Notes under the pieces: model-generated | Databases searched by the model: none | What the model was told of the DNA's origin: nothing | The model's input: only the letters and a program-made list of their open reading frames with translations | In this document: piece by piece, positions 29,757 to 58,836 of the stretch | Layout: the number at the start of each line of letters is the position of its first letter | Position numbering within the stretch: position 1 is the stretch's first letter | Made by a program: the position numbers and the translations under genes | Assembly: GCA_902558885.1 (NCBI GenBank) | Contig: CACEFQ010000006.1 | Span: 1 to 64,000, forward strand | Reading direction: 5' to 3' | Length of the DNA: 64,000 nt | Origin: an uncultured SAR116 cluster alpha proteobacterium | Lineage (GTDB): Bacteria; Pseudomonadota; Alphaproteobacteria; Puniceispirillales; Marisalimonadaceae

Positions 29757-29921
29757 AAAACTAACATGATTTTATACTATATTATTAATAAAATTAATTT
29801 TAAATTTTAATTCTAATTAAATTTTAATACTTAATTAATATTGACATATCTAAATTAAGTTATTAATGGGTGAAATATTAATTTGTATCTTAATATCTTT
29901 AGAGTTTTATGCGAACTTTAT

Positions 29922-40502: not shown

Positions 40503-40922
40503 TACAGTCGTATTTAAATTTTAATATATCTACAGACATTATTTATATATCAAAAAATAAAGTTTGTCTTGATAACATTTAGACTATATAGTTAATTTCG
40601 GAATTTTGAATTAATCACGTATTAATTTTTTTAGTAAAAGAAAGAAGAAGAAGTATCTAAAGCTAATATTATAACGCAGGTGCGTATAAATAAATTGAAT
40701 GAGTTAAAGATTAAGTAGGATTGTATCAATAATAATGAGGTAGTTATTGTATTTTTATATCAAAGATGTATTTATATTTTTAAATTATAAAAATACTTTT
40801 TATATATAAATCATAAACATATTACATATAATTTTATATTTCCATTTATTTTTATAAAACTCATTCCAGTTTTAATGTGCTATCAAACTTGTTTGGTAAC
40901 TCATTTTGTTTGGAGATTAATT
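40503..40922. other. Intergenic region between amiC and rne
   Basis: About 420 nt between divergent genes with no reading frame I can support. The only marked structure is ACGCA-GG-TGCGT at 40674-40685. The length leaves room for a long rne leader; RNase E is known in other bacteria to control its own mRNA through the 5' leader, but no conserved hairpin could be confirmed here. Confidence 0.4.
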
Positions 40923-42983
40923 ATGAGTAAACGTTTATTAATTGATGCAAGGCAGTCTGAAGAAACTAGAGTAATAACAACAACAAATGATATTATAGAT
41001 GATTTTGAATATGAAGTTCATTCTCGAAGACAGCTAAAAGGAAATATTTATCTAGCTAGAGTTACAAGAGTAGAACCTAGCCTTCAGGCAGCTTTTGTTG
41101 AATATGGAGGGAACCGTCAAGGCTTCTTAGCTTTTAGTGAAATTCATCCAGACTATTATAGAATTCCTGTAGAGGACAAAAAGAAACTTCTAGCTGAGGC
41201 ATCTGCTAAAACTGATGAAGAACTTTCTTCCAATGATGAAGTTAATGAAGATTCAACAGATGATTATAATGAAGAAGAACTAAAAAAAATAAAAAGAAAT
41301 TTATACAGAAATTATAAAATTCAAGAAGTTATTGCGCGTCGTCAAATCTTGTTAGTTCAAGTTGTAAAAGAAGAACGTGGAACAAAAGGGGCTGCTTTAA
41401 CCACATATATATCTATAGCAGGAAGATATTGTGTACTTATGCCAAATACTCCTAGAGGTGGAGGGGTAAGTAGAAAAATTGCTAATATTACAGATAGAAA
41501 AAGACTAAAGAAAATCGTTGATGATCTGGACGTTGCAGATGGAATGGCTGTAATTATTAGAACAGCTGGTAGCAAAAGAACTAAGATAGAAATCAAAAGA
41601 GATTATTCTAATTCAGTGTCTATTTGGGAAAATGTAAAAAAATTAACTTTAGAGTCTAATGCTCCTTTTTTAATCCATGAGGAAGGATCGTTGGTTAAAA
41701 GGGCTATAAGAGATCTTTATAACAACGAAATTGACGAAGTGTTAGTTGAAGGAATTGATGCTTATAAGGTTTGTAAAAATTATATGAAAGCTGTGATGCC
41801 TAGCCATGCAAAAAAGGTTCAACAATACAATGATGATAGAAGTCCTTTATTTCAAAAATTCAGATTAGACGCACAATTACAGGATATTTTCAATCCAAGA
41901 GTTAATCTTAAATCAGGTGGGTATTTGATTATTGATCAAACAGAGGCACTAGTTGCAATAGACGTTAATTCCGGAAAAGCCACAAGGGAACGATCGATAG
42001 AAGATACAGCACTTAAAACAAATTTGGAAGCTGCAGAAGAGTTTTCACGTCAATCAAGACTGAGAGATCTGTCTGGATTAATTGTAATTGATTTTATAGA
42101 TATGGAAGAAGGTAAAAATCGTAATCTTGTTGAAAAAAAATTAAAAGAAGCAATGAGAAAAGATAGAGCAAGAATTCAAATTGGTGAAATTAGTAACTTT
42201 GGGCTTCTTGAGCTATCTAGACAAAGATTAAGGCCCTCAGTAATTGAAAACTCTTCTGAGTTATGTCCACAATGTGGTGGTTCAGGCAGGATCCAATCAA
42301 TAGAATTAAGCGCAATTCAAATACTTAGATCTATTCAAGAAGAAGGAAATTCTAATGATAATGTAGGCATTAAGGTTTCAGCACATTCAGACCTCATACT
42401 ACATATACTCAATAAAAAACGCTCTGAATTAAATGAAATTGAATCAAGGTTGGATATATCAATTGATTTTATAAACGATAACTCAATTATTCCTCCTCAA
42501 AAAAAATTAGAAGTTATTAAAAACAACTCAACTACAAACGGAGAACTAATAGAGATTAAAACTGATTTTAGTTCTGGTGAAGAGGATGAAAACCAAAATA
42601 GAAAAAAAAGAGGCAAGAAGTTAAATAAAAAGAAGAAAAGAGTCCCCAAACAAGATAAAAATGATGTTAACAATGCTTTTCAAGAAGAAGAAATTATTGA
42701 AGAAAAAAATAAAGTTCAGGTTGTTTCTGAAAAAGTGCCAAAAAAGAAATCTCGAACAAAAACTAAAAAATCATCAATAAAACAAACAAAAATTAAATCT
42801 AATAACAAATTAAAAGACTCTAACTCAAAAAATACAGAGAAAGAAAAAATAATAGAAACAGAAACTAAGGATAATCATACTGAAATAAGAGAAATTAAAT
42901 CTTCATCTCCTATCGAAGTTACACAAATAGATGATAACTCAAGTTCTAAAAAGCCTAAGAAAAAGGGTTGGTGGTCGCAATAA
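40923..42983 (+). CDS. rne: Ribonuclease E/G
   Basis: About 686 aa from the ATG 40923, which has GGAG 9 nt upstream; an in-frame ATG at 40875 would add 16 non-conserved residues. The S1 domain (GNIYLARVTRVEPSLQAAFVEYG) is followed by the 5' sensor and the catalytic DNase-like domain with the two Mg-binding Asp in VAIDVNSG and IVIDFIDM, then the zinc-link CPQCGGSG. The last 170 residues are a disordered lysine/glutamate-rich tail ending in KGWWSQ, a tail common in alphaproteobacterial RNase E. It processes rRNA and degrades mRNA. Confidence 0.95.
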   Translation: MSKRLLIDARQSEETRVITTTNDIIDDFEYEVHSRRQLKGNIYLARVTRVEPSLQAAFVEYGGNRQGFLAFSEIHPDYYRIPVEDKKKLLAEASAKTDEELSSNDEVNEDSTDDYNEEELKKIKRNLYRNYKIQEVIARRQILLVQVVKEERGTKGAALTTYISIAGRYCVLMPNTPRGGGVSRKIANITDRKRLKKIVDDLDVADGMAVIIRTAGSKRTKIEIKRDYSNSVSIWENVKKLTLESNAPFLIHEEGSLVKRAIRDLYNNEIDEVLVEGIDAYKVCKNYMKAVMPSHAKKVQQYNDDRSPLFQKFRLDAQLQDIFNPRVNLKSGGYLIIDQTEALVAIDVNSGKATRERSIEDTALKTNLEAAEEFSRQSRLRDLSGLIVIDFIDMEEGKNRNLVEKKLKEAMRKDRARIQIGEISNFGLLELSRQRLRPSVIENSSELCPQCGGSGRIQSIELSAIQILRSIQEEGNSNDNVGIKVSAHSDLILHILNKKRSELNEIESRLDISIDFINDNSIIPPQKKLEVIKNNSTTNGELIEIKTDFSSGEEDENQNRKKRGKKLNKKKKRVPKQDKNDVNNAFQEEEIIEEKNKVQVVSEKVPKKKSRTKTKKSSIKQTKIKSNNKLKDSNSKNTEKEKIIETETKDNHTEIREIKSSSPIEVTQIDDNSSSKKPKKKGWWSQ

Positions 42984-44323
42984 AATTAATAGCATTAATA
43001 TTTTTTATTTTTTTTTCAAATAACTCATATTCTGCACAAAAGTTTCAAATAATTCGAGATGCGGAAATTGAACTTTTTTTGCATGAAATTATAAAATCAA
43101 CTATTGAGGAAAGTAAAAGTAAAAATTTTTATCCTAGACTAGTCTTAAATAGTGAATACAATGCATTTGTTACTGGTTCTAACAAAATTTATATAAACAC
43201 TGGTTTGATTGATAAATCAAATTCTTTAAGTGAAATTCAAGCTGTGTTGGCTCATGAAATTGGACACTTGGCTTTAAACCATTACACTTCAAGGTTAATT
43301 AATTCTAACAACTTGTCAAATTATTCAAAACTTGCCACATTTGCAGGCATGGCTCTGTCAGCTAAAGGAAGACTAGATACTAACTCAGCTGTTGGATTGA
43401 TGATTGGATCTAATGATCTAGCTAAAAAATCTTTACTACAATTTTCTAGAATACAAGAACAACAAGCAGACAAATTTGCGTTGGATCAGTTGATAAAAAA
43501 TAAAATATCTTTAACAGGTCTAGAAAATTTATTAACAAATTTAGCAAATGAAGAATTTAACAATTCAAATACATCAACAAATTATTATAGATCACATCCT
43601 TTTTCAAAACAAAGATTAGAACAGGTAAAAAAATATAAATTGCAATATCAAAAAGTATCATGGGTAGAGCAATCAATATCAATAAATGAAAATTTAATTT
43701 CATTAAGGTATATAAAAAATAAGATAAAGGCGTATACTATTGATCCTAATGAGATGATAAAAAATTTGGAAAATAAAAATGATTTTTTATCTAACTATTC
43801 ACGAATGATTGCCTTATTTAGGATTGGTAAATATGATTTAGCTCAAGATAAACTATCTTTAATAAAAAATAAATACGCAGCATATCCATTTTTTTTTGAG
43901 TTAAAAGGTGATATTCACTTCAACGAAGGTAATTTCAATATAGCAATTAATGAGTATGAAAAAGCAATTCAGACTTTACAAGAAGTTTTCACCCCTTCCA
44001 CTGATCTTATAAAATACTCTCTAATTAAGACATATTTACAAACTAATAACAAAGCTTATTTAGAAAAATCAATTATACTCCTAGAAAAATTACTATTAAA
44101 TAATCCTAATTGGAGTTATTTATGGAGATTATTATCCAAAGCATCTGGTAAATTAAACAAAAAAGGAATTGCTTATATCGCTCTAGCTGAAGAGGCGCTT
44201 ATTAAAAAAAACTTTATTAAAGCAAAAAAATATGTAGATTTAGCAAATAAACAAACTTCTTTACCTCTATCTTATAAGTTAAGAGGTTCTGATATACTTA
44301 CTAAAATAAAACTAACAAATTAA
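42968..44323 (+). CDS. M48 family metalloprotease with TPR region (BepA-like)
   Basis: About 451 aa. A short signal peptide (hydrophobic residues 4-18) leads to an M48 peptidase domain with HEIGH in VLAHEIGHLALNH (zinc ligands) and the third ligand in EQQADKFA. The C-terminal half (about 270-430) is TPR-like. The plan is that of BepA/YfgC, a periplasmic protease and chaperone for outer-membrane proteins. There is no ATG before the signal peptide: TTG 42968 or GTG 42971 must be used, both inside the end of rne (16- or 13-nt overlap), so the two are translationally coupled. Confidence 0.85.
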   Translation: MVVAIKLIALIFFIFFSNNSYSAQKFQIIRDAEIELFLHEIIKSTIEESKSKNFYPRLVLNSEYNAFVTGSNKIYINTGLIDKSNSLSEIQAVLAHEIGHLALNHYTSRLINSNNLSNYSKLATFAGMALSAKGRLDTNSAVGLMIGSNDLAKKSLLQFSRIQEQQADKFALDQLIKNKISLTGLENLLTNLANEEFNNSNTSTNYYRSHPFSKQRLEQVKKYKLQYQKVSWVEQSISINENLISLRYIKNKIKAYTIDPNEMIKNLENKNDFLSNYSRMIALFRIGKYDLAQDKLSLIKNKYAAYPFFFELKGDIHFNEGNFNIAINEYEKAIQTLQEVFTPSTDLIKYSLIKTYLQTNNKAYLEKSIILLEKLLLNNPNWSYLWRLLSKASGKLNKKGIAYIALAEEALIKKNFIKAKKYVDLANKQTSLPLSYKLRGSDILTKIKLTN

Positions 44324-44351
44324 AATAACAAATTAACAACAAGCAAGAAAA

Positions 44352-45059
44352 GTGAAAAGAATTATCCTTACATCAATGTCTATTTTGGTATCTATTCTTT
44401 TGATAACCAATTCATCCCATTCGCATGAGATAGATAAAAATCAAATAGAAAAAATAATAAAAAAATTTATAATAGAAAATCCTGATTTGATTAAATCTAC
44501 ACTAGATGGTTATAAGATTTCTCTCGAAAATCAAAAAAAACAAAATGCTATAAAATTATTAAAAAATATTAACAATCCAGGTATTTTTCCAAAACAAGCT
44601 GATGTTACTATTTATGAATTTTTTGATTATAATTGTGGGTACTGTAAATCAGTAGTTAAAACAATTTTGGATGTTTTATCTGAAGATAAAAAAATTAATT
44701 TTGTTTTTGTTGAATTTCCAATTTTATCTCAACAATCATACATTGCTGCTAAAGCAGCCCTTGCCTCAAAAAAACAAGGTTTATATAATAAATTTCATCT
44801 ATCATTAATGAGTATAAGAGGTAGAGTTGATGAAGAAAAAACACTCAACACTGCTAAGAAAATAGGTTTAGATGTAGATCAACTAAAAATAGATATGAAC
44901 AATCCAGAGATTGAAGAAATCTTATTACAAAACAGAGAGATTGCAAAATTACTTGATTTAAATGGAACACCTGCATTTATAATCGGAAACACTATTTATC
45001 CTGGTGCATTGAACTTAAATAATTTAAAAAAAATAATAAAACAATTTCGAGAAAGTTAA
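44352..45059 (+). CDS. DsbA family thiol oxidoreductase
   Basis: A 235-aa periplasmic thioredoxin-fold protein starting with GTG at 44352. It has a signal peptide (about 1-24), an N-terminal helical segment as in Com1/ScsC-like proteins, the active site C-G-Y-C in FFDYNCGYCKS, and a cis-Pro loop NGTPAFIIGN. It should make or correct disulfides in exported proteins. It lies 28 nt after the M48 gene. Confidence 0.88.
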   Translation: MKRIILTSMSILVSILLITNSSHSHEIDKNQIEKIIKKFIIENPDLIKSTLDGYKISLENQKKQNAIKLLKNINNPGIFPKQADVTIYEFFDYNCGYCKSVVKTILDVLSEDKKINFVFVEFPILSQQSYIAAKAALASKKQGLYNKFHLSLMSIRGRVDEEKTLNTAKKIGLDVDQLKIDMNNPEIEEILLQNREIAKLLDLNGTPAFIIGNTIYPGALNLNNLKKIIKQFRES

Positions 45060-45124
45060 ACTGTCTTTATAATTAGTCTTAAAATTGACAAAAACTATAA
45101 TTATGTATTCGTCGGAGAAATGTT

Positions 45125-45565
45125 TTGATTAAAAAATTGTACATTATAAATGGGCCCAACTTAAATCTTCTTGGAACAAGAGAACCTGAAAAATATGGAA
45201 ATATTTCTCTTGATAAAATAAAGACATTATGTAGTGAAAAATGTAAAAAATACAATTTTGATCTAATTTTTTTTCAATCAAATATCGAAGGTGAGTTGAT
45301 TGGTAAAATACATAACGCTATTAATGATGGACAAGGAATTATAATAAATGCAGGAGCATTAACTCATACCTCTATTGGACTCCTTGATGCTCTAAATATG
45401 TTTAAAGGCCCTAAAATAGAATTGCATATAACTAATATTTACGCTCGTGAAAATTTTCGTCATAAATCTTATATTTCACCAGTTGTAAATGGGATAATCG
45501 CTGGATTTGGTTTTAATTCTTACCTCCACGCTATAGATGCCATCAAAGACCTTATAAAAGATTAA
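45125..45565 (+). CDS. aroQ: 3-dehydroquinate dehydratase, type II
   Basis: A 146-aa enzyme of the shikimate pathway that converts 3-dehydroquinate to 3-dehydroshikimate. Motifs: NGPNLNLLGTREPEKYG (catalytic Tyr loop), FQSNIEGELI, NAGALTHTSIGL and ELHITNIYARENFRHKSY with the catalytic His. Translation begins at TTG 45125, 7 nt after GGAG at 45114-45117; no ATG is suitably placed. It is followed by accB, a common alphaproteobacterial order. Confidence 0.95.
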   Translation: MIKKLYIINGPNLNLLGTREPEKYGNISLDKIKTLCSEKCKKYNFDLIFFQSNIEGELIGKIHNAINDGQGIIINAGALTHTSIGLLDALNMFKGPKIELHITNIYARENFRHKSYISPVVNGIIAGFGFNSYLHAIDAIKDLIKD

Positions 45566-45583
45566 ATTAGAAAAGGTAGTTTT

Positions 45584-46060
45584 ATGACAAAAAAAAATGT
45601 CCACAAAGAAAATTTGAGTATAGTCCAAGAGTTCGTTGATATGGTCAACAAAGATAATTTATTGGAATTGGAATATGAGGCAAATGACTTTAAGGTTAAA
45701 GTTGTAAAAAACATGAAAACTTCTTTTTCAACACCTCAAGAAACTATTGTTAGTATTCCTAACGCTAGCGAGAATAAAGAGGCTTCTAAATCAATTGAAA
45801 AGGTAGAACAATTTACCAACAAACATCCTGGTGCAGTAAATTCTCCAATGGTTGGTACTGCATATTCTGCACCTGAACCTGGAAAAGATCCATTTATCAA
45901 ATTAAATTCTCAAGTTACAAAGGGAGATACATTGCTAATTATTGAGGCTATGAAAGTAATGAATACAATTGCAGCCCCTAAATCTGGAAAGTTAGTGTTT
46001 ATTGGATTTGAGGATAGTCAACCAGTAGAATTTGATCAATTACTAGTTGTGATTGAGTAA
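45584..46060 (+). CDS. accB: Biotin carboxyl carrier protein of acetyl-CoA carboxylase
   Basis: A 158-aa protein. The N-terminal helix region is followed by a Ser/Glu-rich linker (about 50-85) and the biotinyl domain, with the biotinylated Lys in IIEAMKVMN and the GTAYSAPEPGKDPFI thumb region. It carries CO2 for malonyl-CoA formation. AAAGG 7 nt before the ATG marks the start. It is followed by accC 8 nt later. Confidence 0.96.
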   Translation: MTKKNVHKENLSIVQEFVDMVNKDNLLELEYEANDFKVKVVKNMKTSFSTPQETIVSIPNASENKEASKSIEKVEQFTNKHPGAVNSPMVGTAYSAPEPGKDPFIKLNSQVTKGDTLLIIEAMKVMNTIAAPKSGKLVFIGFEDSQPVEFDQLLVVIE

Positions 46061-46067
46061 TTAAATT

Positions 46068-47414
46068 ATGATGTTCAAAAAAATATTAATAGCCAATCGT
46101 GGTGATGTGGCATTGAGAGTTTTAAGAGCCTGCAAAGAACTTAATATTCAAACAGTCGCTATTCATTCAACTGCTGACAGCGAGGCAATGCATGTTAGAT
46201 TGGCAGACGAAACTGTCTGTATTGGTGGACCATCATCATCAGAATCATATTTGAACATCCCTGCTATTATAACTGCAGCTCAGTTGGTGGGAGCAGATGC
46301 TATCCATCCCGGAGTAGGTTTTTTATCAGAAAATTCTGATTTTGCAGAAATCGTGGAGGCTCATAATATTGTTTTTATTGGACCAAAACCAGAGCATATA
46401 AAATGTATGGGTGATAAAATACAAGCAAAAAATACAGCAAAAGAACTAGGTATTCCTCTTGTTCCAGGCTCAAAAAGTGACGTTGTAGATTTTAAAAATG
46501 CATTAATTGAAGCAAAAGAAATTGGCTATCCAGTGCTAATCAAAGCCGCATCAGGTGGTGGTGGTAGGGGTATGAAAGTAGCTATGAGTGAGAAAGATTT
46601 AGAATCTGCTTTTACTTCAGCAAAAAGTGAAGCAAAGGCAGCCTTTGGTGATGATCGTGTTTATATGGAAAGATATCTTCAAAAACCAAGGCATATTGAA
46701 GTTCAAATTATTGGAGATAAATTTGGCAATACCGTCCATCTTGGTGAAAGAGAATGTTCGATACAAAGACGTCATCAAAAAGTAATTGAAGAAGCTCCGT
46801 CACCAATCATAGACCAGAGCACAAGAGATAAAATAGGTAATATTGCATCTATGGCTGTGGCAAAAATGGGCTATCTAGGATTAGGTACAATTGAATTCTT
46901 ATATGAAGATGGTCAATTTTTTTTCATTGAGATGAATACAAGGCTTCAGGTTGAGCATCCAATTACAGAGGCTATTACTGGAATAGATCTAGTTAAAGAA
47001 CAAATTATGATTGCTGCTGGTCAACCTATATCTTTCAAACAAAATGATGTAAAGTTTAATGGACACGCTATTGAATGTAGGATTAATGCAGAAGATCCAA
47101 AAACATTTATACCTTCACCTGGCAAAATCACACAATTCCATTCTCCTTGTGGGTTAGGAATTAGAATAGAGTCATGTGTATATTCTGGTTACGTAGTTCC
47201 TCCATATTATGATAGTTTAATTGCCAAACTAATTGTGCATGCGTCTGATAGAGAACAATGTATATTAAGGTTAAAGCAAGCTTTAAAAGAAATTGTTATT
47301 GAACCTATTGCAACTACTATTGATTTACATAAAGATATATTAGAAACCTCTGTGATGAAAGATGGGTCATATGATATAAGATGGTTAGAAAATAAATTGT
47401 TAAATAATAATTAA
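46068..47414 (+). CDS. accC: Biotin carboxylase subunit of acetyl-CoA carboxylase
   Basis: A 448-aa ATP-grasp enzyme that carboxylates biotin on AccB. Motifs: ILIANRGDVALRVLRACKEL at the N-terminus, the glycine-rich KAASGGGGRGMK loop, GERECSIQRRHQKVIEEAPS, FIEMNTRLQVEHPITE and the C-terminal domain. Length is standard. The start is one of two adjacent ATG codons (46068 or 46071). Fixed operon partner of accB. Confidence 0.97.
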   Translation: MMFKKILIANRGDVALRVLRACKELNIQTVAIHSTADSEAMHVRLADETVCIGGPSSSESYLNIPAIITAAQLVGADAIHPGVGFLSENSDFAEIVEAHNIVFIGPKPEHIKCMGDKIQAKNTAKELGIPLVPGSKSDVVDFKNALIEAKEIGYPVLIKAASGGGGRGMKVAMSEKDLESAFTSAKSEAKAAFGDDRVYMERYLQKPRHIEVQIIGDKFGNTVHLGERECSIQRRHQKVIEEAPSPIIDQSTRDKIGNIASMAVAKMGYLGLGTIEFLYEDGQFFFIEMNTRLQVEHPITEAITGIDLVKEQIMIAAGQPISFKQNDVKFNGHAIECRINAEDPKTFIPSPGKITQFHSPCGLGIRIESCVYSGYVVPPYYDSLIAKLIVHASDREQCILRLKQALKEIVIEPIATTIDLHKDILETSVMKDGSYDIRWLENKLLNNN

Positions 47415-47444
47415 AAAATTTATCATTCGACCCAATATATATAT

Positions 47445-48119
47445 TTGAGCACTAAAGATAATAAAATAATTACCTCAAACCAGCTTATAAGAGCTTATAT
47501 GCTCGGTATGTTTCCGATGTCTGAAAGTAGAACAAATAAGAAGTTTTTCTTTGTTGATCCAGAATTTAGAGCTGTAATTCCAATCTTTAATTTTCATATC
47601 TCAAAAAGTCTTTTGCGACTTGTAAAAAAAAGACCTTTTAAAATTACTATAAATAAAGCCTTTCCAGATGTTATTAAATCATGCGCAACTATCAACAGAA
47701 CTGAAACATGGATAAACAAAGAAATAGAAAGCTTATTTATTTCTCTGTATGAGATGAAACACGCTCATTCAGTAGAATGTTGGCAAGATGACCAATTGGT
47801 TGGAGGTATATATGGATTAGCAATAGGAGGCGTTTTTTTTGCAGAATCTATGTTTAGCGCTGTGCCAAATGGAAGTAAAATAGCTTTATTAAATCTTGTA
47901 GCAAGGTTATGGAGAACGGGTTTTAGAATTTTAGATGTTCAGTTTTTAAATAATCATTTATTACAATTTGGAGCGCATGAAATCTGTAAGAATGAATTCC
48001 AAGCTAATCTTCAAAAAGCAATTCAATTAGAAGTAGACATTCTTTCTTTTGGCGAAACAGACGATGATTTTTCTGATTGTTTATCGACCTTTTTACAAGC
48101 AAGAATGGAAATGTCATAA
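47445..48119 (+). CDS. aat: Leucyl/phenylalanyl-tRNA--protein transferase
   Basis: A 224-aa enzyme that adds Leu or Phe to the N-terminus of proteins with N-terminal Lys or Arg, creating N-degrons read by ClpS/ClpAP. It has LIRAYMLGMFPMSE, FFVDPEFRAVIP, GGIYGLAIGGVFFAESMFS and LDVQFLNNHLLQFGAHE. The frame opens at TTG 47445 with no clear ribosome site, so the start is uncertain. clpS and clpA are present at 54.6-57.2 kb. Its last 97 nt are antisense to the DUF2155 gene. Confidence 0.94.
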   Translation: MSTKDNKIITSNQLIRAYMLGMFPMSESRTNKKFFFVDPEFRAVIPIFNFHISKSLLRLVKKRPFKITINKAFPDVIKSCATINRTETWINKEIESLFISLYEMKHAHSVECWQDDQLVGGIYGLAIGGVFFAESMFSAVPNGSKIALLNLVARLWRTGFRILDVQFLNNHLLQFGAHEICKNEFQANLQKAIQLEVDILSFGETDDDFSDCLSTFLQARMEMS

Positions 48120-48454
48120 ACTGAGTTCTCCAAAGCACTTAGCGCAGGACTAGAAGCAAACATCCAACCTTTAAACTTTACTTCTGACAATCTATCAGAG
48201 TTATCTTTTATTCTAATATATGCTAATGATTCAGGTTTAAAAATAGGTTTAGAAAAAATACATCTTTCAACGAAAATATCTAATACTCCAAATTTATGAG
48301 TTTTGGATACATCGACTTCAAAAGTCTTTATTCTGGCCGTAATTTTGTCCAAACCTTGGATTACTATTCTATTCCCTTCAATCCATTGAGAAGCCAATGT
48401 GGTTTTTGAAATTGATAATAAAGTTATTAAGATAAATAAGTTTAAAGTTCGCAT
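48023..48454 (-). CDS. DUF2155 domain protein, exported
   Basis: A 143-aa protein with a signal peptide (1-21, ending TLAS) and the DUF2155 core GLDKITARIKTFEVD, ILDIFVERC-like FGVLDIFVERC and KFKGWMFASSPALSALENSVYDISILAC. The family is periplasmic, of unknown function, and always near mlaD/aat in alphaproteobacteria. The core ends at about residue 121; the last 22 residues are a charged Ser/Lys-rich tail. Most of this tail and the end of the core lie within the 97-nt antiparallel overlap with aat. Confidence 0.85.
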   Translation of the reverse strand: MRTLNLFILITLLSISKTTLASQWIEGNRIVIQGLDKITARIKTFEVDVSKTHKFGVLDIFVERCIFSKPIFKPESLAYIRIKDNSDRLSEVKFKGWMFASSPALSALENSVYDISILACKKVDKQSEKSSSVSPKERMSTSN

Positions 48455-48485
48455 TGTTGAAACCTAGATGATTTTTAATTATTTG

Positions 48486-48926
48486 TTACTCTTTTGAAAA
48501 TACAACTTTTCCTAATAAATCTGTAAAACTTACAGCATCAGTTGTATCATATATAATATCATCTGGTTTAAGATAAGTTTCAGACGAACCTGGTATAATA
48601 TCCAAAAAGTTACTCCCTAAGAGAGATGAAGATGTAATTCTTGCTTGTGAGTCATCTGGTATTTTTATTTCATTGTTGAGCTTAACATGAATTTTGGCAT
48701 TATAGTCTGCTAGATCAAGATCTAACTTAGTAATCTTTCCTACATTTATTCCTGATATTTTTACGTCATCACCATTTTTTAAACCTGCTGAAGAACCAAA
48801 TATAAGAGATATATTATACCCGTCAGTTTGATTCTTATCAATCGATTGCATACCTAATATTAAAAAGAATATGGCTGTTACTAAAACAACTGCCCCCATC
48901 AAAATTTCAATAGAACTGTATCTCAT
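48486..48926 (-). CDS. mlaD: MlaD-like MCE-domain protein
   Basis: A 146-aa single-pass inner-membrane protein. A membrane segment (about 8-27) is followed by one MCE domain with SSAGLKNGDDVKISGINVGKI and ITSSSLLGSNFLDIIPG. MlaD forms a hexameric ring that passes phospholipid between the inner-membrane Mla ABC transporter and the periplasm. The rest of the Mla complex is not in the window. AGGA lies 9 nt before the ATG; DUF2155 follows after 31 nt. Confidence 0.9.
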   Translation of the reverse strand: MRYSSIEILMGAVVLVTAIFFLILGMQSIDKNQTDGYNISLIFGSSAGLKNGDDVKISGINVGKITKLDLDLADYNAKIHVKLNNEIKIPDDSQARITSSSLLGSNFLDIIPGSSETYLKPDDIIYDTTDAVSFTDLLGKVVFSKE

Positions 48927-49098
48927 ATCTAATATTCCTAGTCAGATTATTTACAAATATTATATCTCATTTATAAAAATAATAAATCAGCATTATCAAT
49001 TTTATTTTTAATAAATTTTTTTGACACTTAAAAATTAAGTAAAATTAATGAGTTAAAAAAAAAAGTAAAAAAAATTGAATTATGTACTTTACGAATGC

Positions 49099-49114
49099 AT
49101 ACTAAATCATGTAC
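49099..49114 (+). promoter_or_regulatory. NrdR-like box 2 (distal)
   Basis: ATACTAAATCATGTAC matches about 10 of 16 positions of the NrdR consensus acaCwatATAtwGtgt, keeping the key C, the central AT and the G-T. It begins exactly 31 bp before the second box, which is the spacing of paired NrdR boxes. Confidence 0.5.
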
Positions 49115-49129
49115 TTTAAACATTCGTTA

Positions 49130-49145
49130 TTACTATATCTTGTGT
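49130..49145 (+). promoter_or_regulatory. NrdR-like box 1 (proximal)
   Basis: TTACTATATCTTGTGT matches 13 of 16 positions of the NrdR consensus. It shares ACTAxATCxTGT with the distal box and touches the first DnaA box at 49146. NrdR is the ATP/dATP-sensing repressor of ribonucleotide reductase genes. Confidence 0.65.
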
Positions 49146-49154
49146 TTATCCACA
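49146..49154 (+). promoter_or_regulatory. DnaA box
   Basis: TTATCCACA, a perfect match to TTATNCACA. It follows the proximal NrdR-like box without a gap, 177 nt upstream of the nrdJ ATG. Confidence 0.65.
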
Positions 49155-49253
49155 GGCAACCGTAGTAGCAAAAATTCATAAAACAAAGATTAAATTAAGG
49201 AAAAACAACGCTTTATTGAAACAAAATTTTTAAATTAACTACTAAAGAGCAAG

Positions 49254-49262
49254 TTATCCACA
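49254..49262 (+). promoter_or_regulatory. DnaA box
   Basis: A second perfect TTATCCACA on the same strand, 108 bp after the first and 68 nt upstream of the nrdJ ATG. Two perfect boxes in one gap are more than chance would usually give. Confidence 0.65.
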
Positions 49263-49330
49263 GGTAGTTTTTTAAAAATAAAAAAACAGATTCTAAGTAT
49301 TGTTTTCTTTATTGTAAAAAAGGGAAGAAG

Positions 49331-52300
49331 ATGAAAATTGAAAGACAATTTACAAAAAAAGGAAATGATGCATATGCAGGTATTGAATTTAAAACAACTA
49401 CTAGTGAAATTAAGAACCCTGACGGTACAGTAGTATTTAGTGCACCTAACATTGAAGTACCCGCTAACTATTCTCAGGTTGCAGCAGATATTATTGCACA
49501 AAAATATTTTCGTAAAGCTGGTGTTCCAGTTTATCTGAAAAAAGTAAAAGAAGAAAATGTACCAAACTGGTTATGGCGATCAGAACCACATAAATCAAAA
49601 TTAGATGAAATACCGGAAGACCAAAGATACAAAGGCGAAGAATCAGCAAAGCAAGTTTTTGACAGACTAGCTGGAACGTGGACATACTGGGGATGGAAAG
49701 GTAATTATTTTACAACTGAAGAAGATGCAAAAACGTACTTTGATGAAATGAGATTCATGCTAGCCGCTCAAATGTGTGCTCCAAACTCACCACAATGGTT
49801 TAACACAGGTTTACACTGGGCTTATGGTATAGATGGTCCTAGTCAAGGTCACTACTATGTTGACTTCAAGACAAAAAAACTTGTTAAATCTCAATCTTCA
49901 TATGAACATCCTCAACCTCACGCCTGTTTCATTCAATCTGTAGCAGATGACCTTGTCAATGAAGGTGGAATAATGGACCTTTGGGTTAGAGAAGCCAGGT
50001 TATTCAAGTATGGTTCTGGAACAGGATCAAACTTTTCTAAATTAAGGGGCAGTACAGAAGGTTTATCAGGTGGCGGAAGATCTTCAGGAATGATGAGTTT
50101 TTTAAGAATTGGTGATAGAGCAGCAGGAGCAATCAAATCTGGTGGCACTACAAGAAGAGCTGCAAAAATGGTTACAGTTGATATAGACCACCCTGACATC
50201 GAAGAGTACATAAACTGGAAAGTTGTTGAAGAACAAAAAGTTGCTGCATTAGTAGCAGGTTCAAAATTAACAGCAAAAAATTTAAAATCTATAATGGATG
50301 CATGTAATTTAGATAATTATAATGACGAAGACAGATTAAATCCAAAGGTTAATAACGAACTTAAAAAAGCAATATTGAATTGCCGTGCAGTAATGATACC
50401 TGAAAATTACATACAAAGAGTAATTCAATTTGCTGGCCAAGGATTTAAAGAAATTGAATTCCAAACTTACGATACAGACTGGGATAGCGAAGCATACTTA
50501 ACTGTATCTGGACAAAATTCAAATAACTCAGTTAGAGTCAGTAATGAGTTCTTAGAAAAAGTATCTCAAAATGGCAAATGGGATCTAAAAAAGAGAACTG
50601 ACGGTAGTGTTCATAAAACAGTAGATGCAAAAGAATTATGGTCTAAGATTTCTGAAGCTGCATGGGCTTGCGCAGATCCCGGCTTGCAATATGATACAAC
50701 TATTAACGAATGGCATACTTGCCCTAATGCTGGTAGAATTAATGCATCTAATCCTTGCTCTGAATATATGTTTATTGACGACACTGCCTGTAATTTAGCT
50801 TCAATAAATTTATTACAATTTAAGAAAGACGATGCCTCATTTGATATAAAAGCATATGAGTATACAACTAGATTGTGGACATTAACTCTTGAAATCTCTG
50901 TGATGATGGCACAATTCCCTTCAAAAGAAATCGCACAAAAATCTTATGAATATAGGACACTTGGATTAGGTTACGCAAACATAGGAGGTTTATTGATGTC
51001 TTGGGGTATTCCTTATGATAGTGATCAAGGAAGATCAATCTGCGCTGCTCTAACATCAATAATGACTGGCATATCATACTCAACATCCGCAGAAATTGCT
51101 GGTGAATTAGGGCCATTTCCTAAGTATAAAGAAAATGCAAACAGTATGTTGAAAGTGATAAGAAATCACAAAAGAGCGTCAGAAGGGAAAACTAGAGGTT
51201 ATGAAGACTTATCTATAAATCCTGTACCTCTAATGTCTGAGGACTGTCCTGATCAAAACTTAATTACGGCTGCTAGAGATGCATGGGCAAAAGCACTCTC
51301 TTTAGGTGAAAAAAATGGTTACAGGAATGCTCAAGCTACAGTCATAGCTCCAACTGGAACAATTGGACTAGTTATGGATTGTGATACCACGGGTATTGAA
51401 CCAGATTTTGCTATGGTTAAATTTAAAAAATTAGCAGGTGGTGGCTATTTTAAAATCATCAATCGTGTAGTTCCAGAGGCTCTTGCACATTTAGGGTATG
51501 ATGCAGATCAGATAAGCGATATGCAAAGATATGCAGTAGGCGCTGGAAGCTTAAAAGATTGTCAAGCTGTAAGCCACAACGCATTAATTTCAAAAGGATT
51601 CACTGACAGAGAGATAAAATTAATTGAAGACACTTTAGAGTCAGCTTTTGATATCAAATACGTATTCAATCAATTTATTTTAGGTGAAGAATTTTGTAAA
51701 AATACACTAGGAATTTCATCAGAACAATTGAATGATTTTAGTTTCAATATGTTGGAGTTTTTAGGTTTCACCCAAGAAGAAATAGATGTGGCAAATATTC
51801 ACGTTTGTGGAGCTATGACTCTTGAAAATGCTCCTCACTTGAATAAAGAACACCTTGCAGTATTTGATTGTGCAAATGTGTGTGGTCGAATAGGCAAGAG
51901 ATTCCTATCCGTTGAAAGTCATATCAAAATGATGGCAGCAGCTCAATCTTTTATATCTGGAGCGATATCCAAAACTATAAATATGCCGAATGATGCTTCT
52001 ATTGATGATTGTAGTGATGCCTATATGCTGTCATGGAAATTAGGAATCAAAGCTAATGCACTGTATAGAGATGGATCTAAATTAAGCCAACCACTAAACT
52101 CCGCGCTTCTAGATGATGATATTGATGAAGATAATACTACAAACGAACAAGATATTACAAAACGAACCAACGAAGTTGTTGAGAAAATTGTTGAAAGAGT
52201 TGTTAGAGCAGAACGTGAAAAATTACCTCATAGACGGAAGGGCTATACCCAAAAAGCAATGGTAGGTGGTCATAAAGTGTATCTTAGAACTGGTGAATAT

Positions 52301-52936
52301 GAAAATGGAAAATTAGGTGAAATTTTTATAGATATGCATAAAGAGGGTGCTGCTTTTAGATCATTGATGAATAACTTTGCTATTGCTGTATCAATTGGTT
52401 TGCAATATGGAGTTCCTTTAGAGGAATTTGTCGAAGCTTATACCTTTACACGTTTTGAACCTCAAGGAATGGTAACTGGTAATGATACTATAAAAATGTC
52501 AACTTCAATCCTTGATTATATTTTTAGGGAGTTAGCTATATCATATTTGGATCGAAATGATCTTGGACATGTAGGACCAGATGATCTAGATTCGAGTACT
52601 ACTGGTTCAGGTGATAACAAAGCACTGTTCTCAGAAAAAGTGGCAAGTCGAGGATTTGTTAGAAGAGAATTAAAAGTTGTATCTGGAGGTTCAAATAACA
52701 TTTCAGTAATGCCACAAACCACTTCTCTTAAAGATGAAGGTGTAGAATTATCAGATAACAATACTGCTACAATTACTATTGATGAAACAAAGGCTCCAAG
52801 TCTTTCTCAAGAAATAGAAGCTAAAATCAAAGGCTATGAAGGTGAAGCTTGTGGAGAATGTGGAAATTTCACTCTAGTTAGAAATGGTACATGTATGAAA
52901 TGTAATACATGTGGCGCTACTTCGGGTTGTTCTTAA
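49331..52936 (+). CDS. nrdJ: Adenosylcobalamin-dependent (class II) ribonucleotide reductase
   Basis: A 1201-aa reductase converting ribonucleotides to deoxyribonucleotides with adenosylcobalamin as radical source. The N-terminal part has [11 protein letters not shown]; the catalytic barrel includes [49 protein letters not shown] and [11 protein letters not shown]. The C-terminal 25 residues form a zinc ribbon (CGECGNF and [13 protein letters not shown]) that also supplies redox cysteines. AAGGG precedes the ATG. Length and order are those of the long alphaproteobacterial NrdJ. Need for B12 follows; no B12 synthesis gene is in the window. Confidence 0.96.
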
Positions 52937-52950
52937 ATTAAGGATTTTAA

Positions 52951-53421
52951 ATGAGTAAAGATATTAACAAACGATTAGAAGAATTAAATATACAGATTGA
53001 TAAAGCAAGTCCTCCAGCAGGAAGCTATGTTCCATACGTAATATCAAATAACTTAGTTTTCATATCAGGACAATTACCTTTTATTAGTGGGGAATTAACT
53101 ATAAAAGGAAAAATTGGAGATAATGTATCTGTTGAAGAAGGAATTAGAATGGCTCAGGCTTGCGCAATGGCTTTGCTAAGCCAATTAAAGCAAGCTTGCA
53201 ATGGTGATCTAAACAAAGTCAAAAAAGTTGTTAAATTAGGTGGGTTTGTAGCCTCCACACCAGACTTTACTGATCAACCTAAGATAATAAATGGAGCATC
53301 AGATTTGTTTGTTAAAATTTTTGAAGAAAAAGGGAAACACGCCAGATTTGCAGTTGGAGCACCTGCTCTTCCAAGAAACGTCCCAGTAGAAATTGAAGGT
53401 ATTTTTGAGATTGAAAATTAA
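52951..53421 (+). CDS. RidA family protein
   Basis: A 156-aa member of the RidA/YjgF/TdcF superfamily, of the longer subgroup with segment AGSYVPYVISNNLVFISGQLP at the N-terminus and RFAVGAPALPRNVPVEIEG at the end (substrate Arg in KHARFAVG). RidA removes reactive enamine/imine intermediates by hydrolysis; this subgroup is less well studied. AAGGA 6 nt before the ATG. 14 nt after nrdJ, so probably co-transcribed. Confidence 0.88.
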   Translation: MSKDINKRLEELNIQIDKASPPAGSYVPYVISNNLVFISGQLPFISGELTIKGKIGDNVSVEEGIRMAQACAMALLSQLKQACNGDLNKVKKVVKLGGFVASTPDFTDQPKIINGASDLFVKIFEEKGKHARFAVGAPALPRNVPVEIEGIFEIEN

Positions 53422-53447
53422 GTTATATTTTCTTAAAACCTTTGATA

Positions 53448-54590
53448 ATGAAAGTTGAATTATTATCCAAATTATCTGATATTAATAAAAATGATTGGGA
53501 CAATCTAAATACCTTTAATCATCCATTTATATCTTTTGATTTTTTGAATTCTTTGGAAGTTTCAAAATCCGTAACCTCTTCAACTGGTTGGAACCCTCAA
53601 CACATAGTAGTTAAAAATACAAATAATGAAATAATTGGTGTTTCTCCAAATTATTTAAAAATGCATTCATACGGTGAATATATTTTTGATCATTCATGGG
53701 CAAATGCGTTTGAAAATGCTGGTGGGCAATATTATCCAAAATTACTTTGTGCGATCCCTTTTACACCTGCTACAGGTCCAAGAATTTTGATTAATCCTGA
53801 AAATTCAAACTACGAAAAAATTTTCAAATTGATAATAAACACATATGAATTGATTGTGAAAAATAACAAACTAAGTTCAGCACATATTAATTTTACTACT
53901 GATAAGTTGAATAAAAAATTAAAAGAAGAAAATTGGATAAGAAGAAAAGGATTACAGTTCCACTGGCACAATAATGATTATAAAACATTTGACGATTTTT
54001 TAAATCAATTGAAAAGTTCAAAAAGAAAAGCAATTAGAAATGAAAGAAAAAAAATAAAGAATTCAAATCTAATTATTGAAAAATTAACTGGCAAACAACT
54101 AAATGTTGAAATATGGGATTCATTTTATAACTTCTATTTAAATACAATAGATAAAAAATGGGGAGGTGCATATTTAACAAAAGATTTTTTTTATTTGATA
54201 AATGAAACAATGAAAAATGATATTCTGTTAATTATAGCAAAACAAGATGACAAGATTGTTGCCGGTGCTTTGAATTTTATTAGTAAAAACACTCTTTATG
54301 GAAGAAATTGGGGTTCAATTGTAAATATACCATTTTTACATTTTGAACTTTGTTACTATCAGGCCATTGATTATGCAATCGAGAAAAAAATTAAGATAGT
54401 AGAGGCAGGTGCTCAAGGTCATCATAAAATACAAAGAGGATATATTGCTAGACCAACCTACAGTAGCCATTTCATTCCAAATTACTCTTTTGCTAAAGCT
54501 ATTAGAAATTTTACTAGGCTTGAAGAATTAGAAGTTAATAAACAAATAGAGTTAATTAATATAGAAAATTCACCATATTCTAATAATTAA
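53448..54590 (+). CDS. FemAB-like GNAT-fold protein (COG3146 / PF04339 family)
   Basis: About 380 aa. The blocks HPFISFDFLNSLE, HSWANAFENAGGQYYPKLLCAIPFTPATGPRIL, SAHINF, and NFISKNTLYGRNWGSI with the late HFELCYYQAIDYAIEK and EAGAQGHHKIQRGYI are typical of this peptidogalycan-recognition/GNAT family. The enzyme class is thought to transfer an acyl or aminoacyl group; the substrate is not known. ATG 53448 is preferred to TTG 53442. Its 3' end overlaps clpA by 4 nt on the other strand. Confidence 0.8.
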   Translation: MKVELLSKLSDINKNDWDNLNTFNHPFISFDFLNSLEVSKSVTSSTGWNPQHIVVKNTNNEIIGVSPNYLKMHSYGEYIFDHSWANAFENAGGQYYPKLLCAIPFTPATGPRILINPENSNYEKIFKLIINTYELIVKNNKLSSAHINFTTDKLNKKLKEENWIRRKGLQFHWHNNDYKTFDDFLNQLKSSKRKAIRNERKKIKNSNLIIEKLTGKQLNVEIWDSFYNFYLNTIDKKWGGAYLTKDFFYLINETMKNDILLIIAKQDDKIVAGALNFISKNTLYGRNWGSIVNIPFLHFELCYYQAIDYAIEKKIKIVEAGAQGHHKIQRGYIARPTYSSHFIPNYSFAKAIRNFTRLEELEVNKQIELINIENSPYSNN

Positions 54591-56911
54591 GTTAATTCTG
54601 TTGCATCTCTACTTTTATTTTTAGAATTGTTGTTCTTTAGTTTTGTATCTTTACTATTTGAGCCATCTGTTTTTAGTGTAAGTTTATCTTTTTTTAAATC
54701 AACATACACTATTCCACCGTCAATTAATCTTCCAAATAGTAATTCCTCAGCCAGAGGCTTTTTAATATGTTCTTGAATGACTCTTCCTAATGGTCTAGCA
54801 CCAAAAGTTTTATCATATCCTTTTGTTGCCAGCCAATCTCTAGCTTTATCAGTTAAGACAACAGATACACCTTTTTCAGATAGCTGTGCTTCTAATTGCA
54901 TAATAAATTTATCAACAACCATTCTTACAACTTCTAATGGCAAGTATCCGAAAGGTATTATAGCGTCTAATCTATTTCTAAATTCTGGCGCAAATAACTT
55001 GTCTATCGCTTCACTATCAGCACCTTCACGATTTTCTTGCTTAAAGCCAATTGCTGCCTTTGATAACTCTTGTGCTCCTGCGTTTGTAGTCATAATTAAA
55101 ATTGTATTTCTAAAGTCTATAGATTTACCGTTGTTATCAGTTAATTTTCCATGATCCATCACTTGAAGTAGTAAGTTAAATAAATCTGGATGAGCTTTTT
55201 CTATCTCGTCTAATAAAAGTACTGAGTGAGGGTTTTGATCTACGGCATCAGTCAAAAGACCACCTTGATCAAAACCAACATAACCTGGAGGTGCACCAAT
55301 TAATCTTGATACAGTATGTCTTTCCATATATTCCGACATATCAAACCTGATGAGTTTAACACCAGTAGCTTCAGCTAATTGTTTAGCAACTTCAGTTTTT
55401 CCAACACCAGTTGGTCCAGAAAACAAGTAACAGCCAACAGGTTTTTCACCTTCTCTTAATCCAGCTCTAGATAATTTGATACTTGAAACTAATTCAGAAA
55501 CTGCTTTGTCTTGTCCATACACCATTATTTTTAAATCGTTTTCTAACTTCGAAAGTGCTTTTCTATCGTCAGTAGAAACATTTCTAGGCGGAATTCTTGC
55601 AATCAAAGCAATAGTTTCTTCAATCTCAACTTTACCAATAATTCGTTTTCTTTTTGATTTATTTTTTAACATTTGTGCTGCAGCAGTCTCGTCTATAACG
55701 TCTATTGCTTTATCAGGTAACTTTCTATCATTTATGTATCTAGCAGATAATTCAACAGCTGTTTTAATAGCAATATTTGTAAATTTTAAATTATGATGTT
55801 TTTCATAACGTGATTTTAAACCCATTAATATTTTTATAGTATCTTCAACATTTGGCTCTGGAACATCAATTTTTTGAAATCTTCTCACTAATGCCCTATC
55901 TTTATCAAAATAACCTCTGTATTCCTTATAAGTTGTTGAACCTATACATTTTAAGGAACCATTTTGAAGTGCTGGTTTTAATAAATTAGATGCATCCATA
56001 GCACCACCACTAGTCGCCCCTGCACCAATTATGGTATGTATTTCATCAATAAATAATATAGCATTTTCATTCTGTTCAATCTCTTTCATCACAGCCTTCA
56101 AACGCTCTTCAAAATCACCTCTGTATCTTGTGCCTGCTAACAACGCACCCATATCTAAAGCATATATTTCTGAATTTAATAGAACTTCAGGAACATTACC
56201 ATTAACAACTTTATCGGCTAAACCTTCTGCAATTGCAGTTTTTCCTACACCAGGGTCACCAACTAATAAAGGATTATTCTTTGTTCTTCTACATAAAACT
56301 TGAATAGTCCTATCTAACTCAGATTGTCTACCTATTAAAGGGTCAACCTTACTCTCAGCTGCTTTCTCATTTAGATTAACAGCATATTTATCTAGAGCTT
56401 TTTCAGATTTTTTGTTATCGGCATCTTCAATCTCATTATCAGCCCCAGATGGTGTATTAGATTTTGAATAATTGGGATCTTTCGCCAAACCATGACTAAT
56501 AAAACTGACTGCATCAAGACGTTTCATGTCCTGCTTCTGAAGTAAATATACTGCATAGCAGTCTCTTTCAGTAAACATAGCTACTAAGATATTTGCTCCT
56601 GTTGCTTCACTTCTGCCTGAGGATTGAGTGTGTATTACAGCTCTTTGAACAACTCTTTGAAAACCTGCTGTTGGCTGTGTATCTGCTTCTTTATCTGATG
56701 TAACAATTGCCTTCAATTCTTCTTTTAAATATTTATCTATGTCTTCTTCTAATATTTTTATATTCACTGAACACGCTTTTAATACCTCAACAGCGTCCTG
56801 ATCTTTCAACAAAGCAGAAAGCAAATGTTCTAATGTTGCAAACTCGTGCTTTAATGAATAAGCATTTGTCATTGCTCGTTTAACTGTTTCTTCTAAGGAT
56901 TTAGATAACAT
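54587..56911 (-). CDS. clpA: ATP-dependent Clp protease ATP-binding subunit ClpA
   Basis: A 774-aa AAA+ unfoldase. The N-domain (1-150) with ALEHLL-like ATLEHLLSALL binds ClpS; two ATPase modules follow with Walker A GDPGVGKTA (near 216) and GPTGVGKTE (near 500), and Walker B LFIDEIHT and LLLDEIEKA. The C-terminus has FAPEFRNRLDAII and a serine/lysine-rich tail. It feeds substrates to ClpP. ClpS is just upstream (2-nt gap), giving the usual clpS-clpA pair. Confidence 0.96.
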   Translation of the reverse strand: MLSKSLEETVKRAMTNAYSLKHEFATLEHLLSALLKDQDAVEVLKACSVNIKILEEDIDKYLKEELKAIVTSDKEADTQPTAGFQRVVQRAVIHTQSSGRSEATGANILVAMFTERDCYAVYLLQKQDMKRLDAVSFISHGLAKDPNYSKSNTPSGADNEIEDADNKKSEKALDKYAVNLNEKAAESKVDPLIGRQSELDRTIQVLCRRTKNNPLLVGDPGVGKTAIAEGLADKVVNGNVPEVLLNSEIYALDMGALLAGTRYRGDFEERLKAVMKEIEQNENAILFIDEIHTIIGAGATSGGAMDASNLLKPALQNGSLKCIGSTTYKEYRGYFDKDRALVRRFQKIDVPEPNVEDTIKILMGLKSRYEKHHNLKFTNIAIKTAVELSARYINDRKLPDKAIDVIDETAAAQMLKNKSKRKRIIGKVEIEETIALIARIPPRNVSTDDRKALSKLENDLKIMVYGQDKAVSELVSSIKLSRAGLREGEKPVGCYLFSGPTGVGKTEVAKQLAEATGVKLIRFDMSEYMERHTVSRLIGAPPGYVGFDQGGLLTDAVDQNPHSVLLLDEIEKAHPDLFNLLLQVMDHGKLTDNNGKSIDFRNTILIMTTNAGAQELSKAAIGFKQENREGADSEAIDKLFAPEFRNRLDAIIPFGYLPLEVVRMVVDKFIMQLEAQLSEKGVSVVLTDKARDWLATKGYDKTFGARPLGRVIQEHIKKPLAEELLFGRLIDGGIVYVDLKKDKLTLKTDGSNSKDTKLKNNNSKNKSRDATELT

Positions 56912-56913
56912 TG

Positions 56914-57237
56914 TTATTCCTTTTCTAATTGAACTTGTAAAGGATGCTCATATTTACGGGCATAGTTCATTACTTGCATCGCTTTGGTTTCTGCTAAATC
57001 ATATGCATAAATTCCACATACACCAACACCACGTTGATGGACATGAAGCATTATTTGCGTTGCCTCTTCTCTATTTTTTTTAAAAAACTTTTCGAGAACT
57101 TCAATAACAAACTCCATTGGGGTGTAATCATCATTCATCATTAATACTCTATAAAGTGGTGGGATTTTTGTTTTTGGCTTTACAGCTAATTTTACGTTTC
57201 CTTCAACATCATCCTTACTATCTTTATCTTCACCCAT
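56914..57237 (-). CDS. clpS: Clp adaptor ClpS
   Basis: About 107 aa from ATG 57237; upstream in-frame TTG codons (57303) would add 22 residues not typical of ClpS. The core [25 protein letters not shown], the Met gate and [23 protein letters not shown] form the N-degron pocket (NDD, M and H-x-x-G). It delivers N-end-rule substrates to ClpA. Combined with aat at 47 kb, an N-degron pathway is complete except for ClpP, which is outside the window. Confidence 0.93.
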
Positions 57238-57424
57238 AGAAATTGATGGTATAATTCTTAAACCAAGATCTTCAAAATTTTTATATTTTGTACTATTCAA
57301 CAATTTTCTGAATATTCCTTTTTAGTATAATTTCTATAATAATATAAGAACGACGGATGAGTTCGACAAGTTTAAGTTAATTTTTTTTTAATACACTCTT
57401 TCATAAAAGTTGCTCGTATTCTAT

Positions 57425-57489
57425 ACTAAATGTAGTGTTTAGTTAGAAAAATAATCTAAATGATGTGTTTCTTTTAATTTTTAGATTAT
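57425..57489 (+). other. Two tandem stem-loops in the clpS-dac gap
   Basis: Stem 1: ACTAAA (57425-57430) with TTTAGT (57438-57443), 7-nt loop. Stem 2: ATAATCTAAA (57451-57460) with TTTAGATTAT (57480-57489), 10 bp, 19-nt loop, followed by a T-rich stretch. They lie 126-190 nt before the carboxypeptidase ATG within an otherwise featureless 377-nt gap. They may be a leader structure or a small RNA; both stems are AT-only and could be chance. Confidence 0.3.
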
Positions 57490-57614
57490 AATTTTTTTAA
57501 CTTTTATGCTAATAAAAATCTTTAAATTAATTTTTTTGGATAAAAAAATTGCTTAAAAATTGTACTAAAATATTAAATTATCTTAAAATCTTTTTGTTTC
57601 AAAAAAACTATTCA

Positions 57615-58823: not shown

Positions 58824-58836
58824 TACAAATACTTCT

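Follow-up and report, generated by a model that had tools for sequence, protein, structure and literature searches.

A candidate dual NrdR and DnaA operator upstream of the class II ribonucleotide reductase gene nrdJ in a genus of the SAR116 cluster

Two NrdR-like boxes and two DnaA boxes lie upstream of a ribonucleotide reductase (RNR) gene in the window (the whole stretch of 64,000 nucleotides analysed, from an alphaproteobacterium of the SAR116 cluster). The question raised by this arrangement is whether the gene is tied both to the dNTP level, through NrdR, and to the start of replication, through DnaA, as an earlier note on this DNA had proposed, or whether one set of boxes is kept for another reason.

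The gene, the regulators and the upstream sites

The host genome of the window (1.65 Mb, 36 contigs, 76% complete) has SAR116-cluster genomes and a MAG labelled AAA536-G10 as its nearest named genomes. The gene downstream of the boxes, taken in the earlier note for a B12-dependent reductase, is indeed nrdJ (Table 1), the sole PF02867 locus in this 76% complete assembly. The small subunit of class I RNR was found in 0 of 37 genomes (genus and order relatives searched), and class III RNR above the cut-off likewise in 0 of 37, with one sub-cut-off match in G040; nrdJ is therefore probably the sole RNR of these bacteria.

The nrdR gene, whose presence the proposal called for, was found in the same genome (TIGR00244, 176.6 bits; cut-off 124.65), and its product aligns to solved NrdR chains over 143 residues. 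Among the 37 genomes nrdR was found in 25 (13/23 genus, 12/14 order); the 10 of 23 genus assemblies in which it was not found are 52–90% complete (one 90%), and assembly incompleteness is the likely explanation. A search of 6 genomes for dnaA succeeded in 5 (4/4 genus relatives and one order relative); the gene was not found in the own assembly (76% complete).

Table 1. Features upstream of nrdJ and the gene itself (window coordinates)
Feature	Position	Strand	Particulars
Conserved A-tract block, just upstream of the NrdR pair	49055..49092	+	conservation only; ends in invariant CTTTAC (49087-49092)
Distal NrdR-like box, ATACTAAATCATGTAC	49099..49114	+	10/16 of consensus; counterpart at 31 bp in 33/33 genus loci (30 distinct)
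Proximal NrdR-like box, TTACTATATCTTGTGT	49130..49145	+	13/16 of consensus; starts 31 bp after the distal box, 15-bp spacer
Perfect DnaA box 1, TTATCCACA	49146..49154	+	abuts the proximal NrdR box; all 9 columns invariant across the 30 distinct genus sequences
Conserved TAAATTAAGGAAAAACAA between the two DnaA boxes	49191..49208	+	invariant 7-mer AAAACAA at 49202-49208
Perfect DnaA box 2	49254..49262	+	108 bp on from box 1, ends 68 bp before the start codon; all 9 columns invariant across the 30 distinct genus sequences
nrdJ, adenosylcobalamin-dependent class II RNR, 1201 aa	49331..52936	+	NCBIfam NF005736, 2159.8 bits (cut-off 1737)

The NrdR-like boxes were scored against acaCwAtATaTwGtgt (the published form, PMC4009431, stops at the 15th letter; the final t was added here). 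The paired sites and the score of the proximal one were reproduced as first described, and the distal one was found to be the weaker match (Table 1). The spacer fits the NrdR standard, given as commonly 15–16 bp in PMC12051234, and sets the boxes about three helix turns apart, centre to centre. A matrix was built from 58 sites of non-SAR116 alphaproteobacteria, chosen with the same consensus. The matrix scoring suggested in the earlier note favoured the region as a pair, not box by box: among 63,985 window positions the proximal box ranked 5 and the distal box 56, and among pairs at 31–32 bp the nrdJ pair topped the window by far (12.0 vs 1.7 for the runner-up). Single-box scoring was therefore set aside as weak, the pair alone standing out. 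With a degenerate pair pattern (at most 3 mismatches) one match per genome was obtained, at nrdJ, in 5/5 genus genomes; the reversed control gave 0 matches in the same five.

Both DnaA boxes were found where they had been described, one touching the proximal NrdR-like box and the other farther on. Markov shuffling of the 404-bp intergenic region (20,000 rounds) produced one or more perfect boxes with P = 0.002 and never produced two. A partner box was sought at 2–3 bp from either box and none was found (best neighbour 4/9); the nrdJ boxes are therefore not classed as an E. coli-type double-box target.

As to other elements, a consensus scan gave no promoter on the + strand (its 3 hits lie on the − strand, against a chance expectation of 3.1). 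A −35/−10 pair overlapping the proximal NrdR box was picked out by eye and is speculation; speculative, too, is a possible role of the A-tract block (Table 1) as a promoter or UP-like element. No Rfam match at gathering score was obtained in 40000–60000 of the window, and a known cobalamin riboswitch, or another known RNA near nrdJ, was therefore rejected. Control of nrdJ by CcrM was rejected as well: GANTC occurs within 300 bp in just 12 of the 33 genus upstream regions.

Conservation in the genus, the order and the class

Four sets of nrdJ loci were compared. Genus set, 33 loci: 28 from the own and same-genus genomes and 5 (L055–L059) placed in the genus by 87–96% identity; over the aligned stretch L055, L056 and L058 repeat other rows, so that 30 are distinct. 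Dropped from it were L017 and L026 (contig ends at the gene), L061 and L062 (no upstream sequence), G016 and G019 (gene at the contig edge) and L060 (128 bp upstream; DnaA box 2 is present there at −85); G003, G008, G011, G027 and G033 gave no match in the locus search and were left out. Order set, 23 loci: 22 of 23 fetched (L049 dropped, 52 bp) and L063, which was placed there; G060 gave no match. Class set 1, 70 loci: nrdJ loci of other alphaproteobacteria, most of them titled as Rhodobacterales (L120 dropped, no upstream sequence); L080 was also dropped from the intergenic box comparison (69 loci). Class set 2, an even draw: 107 loci, reduced to 104 after removal of L242, L307 and L323 (odd start). 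This set leaves out L216 and L217 as SAR116, nine nearly whole matches (G246, G159, G080, G095, G118, G122, G231, G139 and G092) and the partial matches G208 and G249. Class sets 1 and 2 may share species.

Within the genus an NrdR-like pair at exactly 31 bp was present in 33/33 loci having 300 bp or more upstream (30 distinct); the pair at 31/32 bp beat 95% of its own shuffles in 30/30 distinct upstream regions, and the best pair over distances of 20–45 bp fell at 31 bp in 28/30. All 33 loci (30 distinct) also carry a pair of perfect DnaA boxes in the same orientation; the first touches the proximal NrdR box in every locus (32 by script, L059 by eye), and the distance from the first to the second varies from 107 to 129 bp. 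In the upstream alignment of the 30 distinct sequences 89 of 380 columns are invariant (pairwise identity: mean 0.77, minimum 0.60), and of its 372 9-mers only two are fully invariant, namely the two DnaA boxes.

Outside the genus the two halves part. In the order a 31/32-bp pair beat 95% of its own shuffles in 20 of 23 members, the best pair over 20–45 bp falling at 31/32 in just 13; the distal motif ATCATGTAG is common to 10 of the 23. A perfect DnaA box within 400 bp upstream of nrdJ was found in just 3 order members (20/23 without), and the abutting DnaA/NrdR arrangement in one, L038, of another family. The expectation that the whole arrangement would be kept in relatives is thus borne out throughout the genus, for the pair and both DnaA boxes, and fails for the DnaA boxes in most of the order. 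In the class the 31/32-bp pair beat 95% of its own shuffles in 67/70 loci (set 1) and 92/104 (set 2), and the best pair over 20–45 bp lay at 31 or 32 bp in 54/70 and 64/104, respectively. Such pairs being general in the order and the class, the putative NrdR half is ordinary for alphaproteobacterial nrdJ.

For the DnaA half, a perfect box within 400 bp upstream of nrdJ was found in 12/70 loci of class set 1 (0.23 expected in shuffles; 58/70 without); Kiloniella (L064/L065) and Thioclava (L104) are examples. Of the intergenic DNA of the 69 loci compared, that at nrdJ (29.4 kb) contains 12 perfect boxes and the remainder (42.3 kb) 0; with at most one mismatch the counts are 39 and 7. Another 6 perfect boxes fall in the remaining 621 kb of these loci, most of which is coding. 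In class set 2 a perfect box was found within 400 bp in 14/104 loci (0.25 loci expected in shuffles; 90/104 without); the control window 500–900 bp upstream, probably mostly coding, had one in 0/104, and the other 152 kb of upstream flank contained 0. With one mismatch allowed at most, a box was found in 28 loci of this set and in 5 control windows, against 6.4 loci in shuffles. Across Alphaproteobacteria the DNA upstream of nrdJ is enriched in perfect DnaA boxes, a recurrent and not universal feature; since the boxes differ in position and strand between groups, the sites seem to have been gained repeatedly. In one genus outside SAR116 (L236 and L247) two DnaA-type boxes 88 bp apart have closely similar positions in front of nrdJ: −296/−208, both perfect, in one locus; −294, TTATGCACA, and −206, perfect, in the other. 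This is another lineage keeping a DnaA box pair.

These counts bear on the simplest alternative: that only the NrdR operator works and the DnaA boxes have no effect on nrdJ, serving, for example, as datA-like titration sinks. It draws on the NrdR-like pair being general in the order and the class while perfect DnaA boxes are few in the order. It draws also on E. coli, where DnaA is reported to prefer double boxes and just 13 of 32 consensus single boxes are described as associated (PMC11317965), so that single boxes seem poor binders there. We consider it unlikely, given that the DnaA/NrdR abutment is fixed in the 33 genus loci and recurs in L038 of another family, that DnaA boxes are recurrently enriched upstream of nrdJ across the class, and that a titration site has no reason to recur at this gene.

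Possible control of nrdJ and its relation to known systems

The conservation of the pair together with both DnaA boxes thus supports dual NrdR plus DnaA control, and the upstream region of nrdJ in this SAR116 genus is, on the strength of its sequence, probably a dual operator. When dNTPs are plentiful, NrdR with dATP plus ATP would bridge the pair across three helix turns, and nrdJ would be repressed; bridging and repression are established in other organisms and are carried over to SAR116 nrdJ by analogy. DnaA, to judge from the exact conservation of the two 9-mers and from their being its box sequence, would occupy 49146–49154 and 49254–49262, and expression of nrdJ would then be tied to the replication-initiation state; we infer the link to replication start from these sites. 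Since box 1 touches the proximal NrdR box and box 2 follows downstream, bound DnaA is expected to influence NrdR as well as RNA polymerase; contact or competition between DnaA and NrdR is suggested by the touching sites. As to the sign of the effect, DnaA-ATP as a brake on nrdJ, released on initiation, is slightly favoured, at about an even chance, and DnaA as an activator or anti-repressor comes somewhat below that.

Among known systems the nearest is the nrdAB promoter of E. coli (class Ia; DnaA, NrdR and Fis), where a perfect DnaA box and an NrdR-like pair likewise occur together upstream; scored with the same consensus, its pair reaches 29.5 against 28.5 for SAR116 nrdJ. There a double DnaA box, one perfect box with a 7/9 partner 3 bp on, lies upstream of the NrdR pair by 28 or 60 bp (two pairs tie in score), whereas at SAR116 nrdJ single DnaA boxes lie downstream of the pair, one of them abutting it, and the enzyme is of class II and probably the only RNR. 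DnaA is described as activating or repressing E. coli nrdAB according to its nucleotide state and level (PMC8203912). Binding of DnaA was also reported, by ChIP-seq, upstream of the class III operon nrdDG of E. coli (PMC11317965), a parallel in being a non-class-I RNR promoter that differs from nrdJ in its class. The statement in the earlier note that the dual logic is known for class I in E. coli thus stands for class Ia and is too narrow for DnaA, which binds at class III nrdD as well.

NrdR control of class II RNR is known from Streptomyces and Pseudomonas (PMC4009431, PMC4409342). S. coelicolor and P. aeruginosa resemble the present case in having NrdR boxes upstream of a class II RNR; unlike it, they carry further RNR classes, and DnaA sites are not mentioned in the parts of these two papers available to us. 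Control of RNR genes by DnaA has been proposed for B. subtilis and C. crescentus (PMC8203912, PMC11317965). Caulobacter crescentus is likewise an alphaproteobacterium with DnaA as a transcription factor for DNA-precursor genes; what is named for its DnaA regulon, in the part of PMC8203912 available, is nrdAB or RNR in general and not nrdJ. A report of DnaA at a class II RNR was sought in the open-licence PMC literature and none was found. The claim that the combined logic is undescribed for nrdJ accordingly narrows: as NrdR at class II RNR was already known (PMC4009431, PMC4409342), only the DnaA half is new. What SAR116 nrdJ would add, as read from its sites, is the DnaA plus NrdR logic on another RNR class and in a different, touching arrangement.

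If the dual-operator reading is true, coupling of RNR to DnaA is not peculiar to class I and III enzymes, and B12 supply, dNTP level and replication initiation meet at one gene, probably the only RNR of these ocean bacteria. The recurrence across Alphaproteobacteria offers a natural comparative set for the combining of initiator and dNTP-sensor sites.

Perfect DnaA boxes elsewhere in the genus and the replication origin

Perfect DnaA boxes are scarce in the own genome, with 10 in 1.65 Mb: 2 at nrdJ, 1 upstream of a CcrM-like methyltransferase gene, 1 at the start of ORF 29046–29756 and 6 in coding DNA. All 15 boxes were placed in G014 (99% complete): nrdJ 2, ccrM 1, coaE/hemE 1, coding 11, the intergenic ones being confined to the first three places. 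All 18 were placed in G021 (93% complete): nrdJ 2, ccrM 1, other intergenic 1 (L214), CDS end 1, coding 13; none of these 18 is at coaE/hemE. The box at ORF 29046–29756 (minus strand; by eye it looks like a serine acetyltransferase gene) lies at 29749–29757 and overlaps the start of the ORF.

Could the region upstream of nrdJ be the chromosomal origin or a part of it, with boxes for replication rather than for nrdJ? One intergenic region there combines two perfect boxes with a very AT-rich stretch, and in the own genome and the 8 genus relatives with full listings a box pair within 150 bp occurs only at nrdJ, the exception being a coaE–hemE pair in G024. Against this, the latter intergenic region (L153, G024:C10) has two perfect boxes 109 bp apart, and one perfect box lies between coaE and hemE in G014 (L201, G014:C27; the gene names were tested in G014 and read by eye in G024); this neighbourhood is that of oriC in Caulobacter. 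Moreover, only two DnaA boxes stand at nrdJ, and no sustained switch of third-position GC skew was found at the gene in the own contig (104 kb) or in that of G021 (200 kb). An oriC at nrdJ was rejected on the skew and the coaE–hemE boxes, which together make it very improbable; the origin of the genus probably lies between coaE and hemE.

The CcrM-like methyltransferase of the own genome scores 607 bits, below the curated cut-off of 830. In 16 of 17 genus loci (L159–L176; own genome C13, 26738–26746) the CcrM-like gene has a perfect DnaA box 43–49 bp upstream, and the 17th has CTATCCACA, one mismatch off the perfect box, a pattern that suggests control of ccrM by DnaA in this genus. In the order no perfect box was found near ccrM in the 9 loci with a start placed by script; 3 others were not placed.

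The ccrM boxes also weigh on the notion that the two 9-mers at nrdJ are kept for some other reason, either a leader RNA structure or a different factor reading TTATCCACA. Transcription starting near the NrdR boxes would put both 9-mers in or near the leader, and a further conserved block lies between them (Table 1); but the stretch around nrdJ gave no Rfam match at gathering score, and the recurrence of the same 9-mer upstream of ccrM and at coaE–hemE fits DnaA. We think this explanation improbable.

With dual control of nrdJ by NrdR and DnaA as the preferred reading, a wider one is put forward tentatively, at somewhat less than even confidence. In these streamlined SAR116 bacteria the network of intergenic perfect DnaA boxes would have shrunk to little beyond the origin locus, nrdJ and ccrM. 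At nrdJ, DnaA and NrdR would compete or cooperate at the adjoining sites of one composite operator, through which this probably sole RNR gene would respond jointly to initiation state and dNTP level; and DnaA capture of nrdJ would have been repeated across Alphaproteobacteria.

Perfect DnaA boxes were rarer than a reversed control pattern in 11 of the 12 genus genomes counted (own and 11 relatives), for example 15 vs 43 in G014, the exception being G013 with 26 vs 25, hinting that stray DnaA sites are avoided in these genomes.
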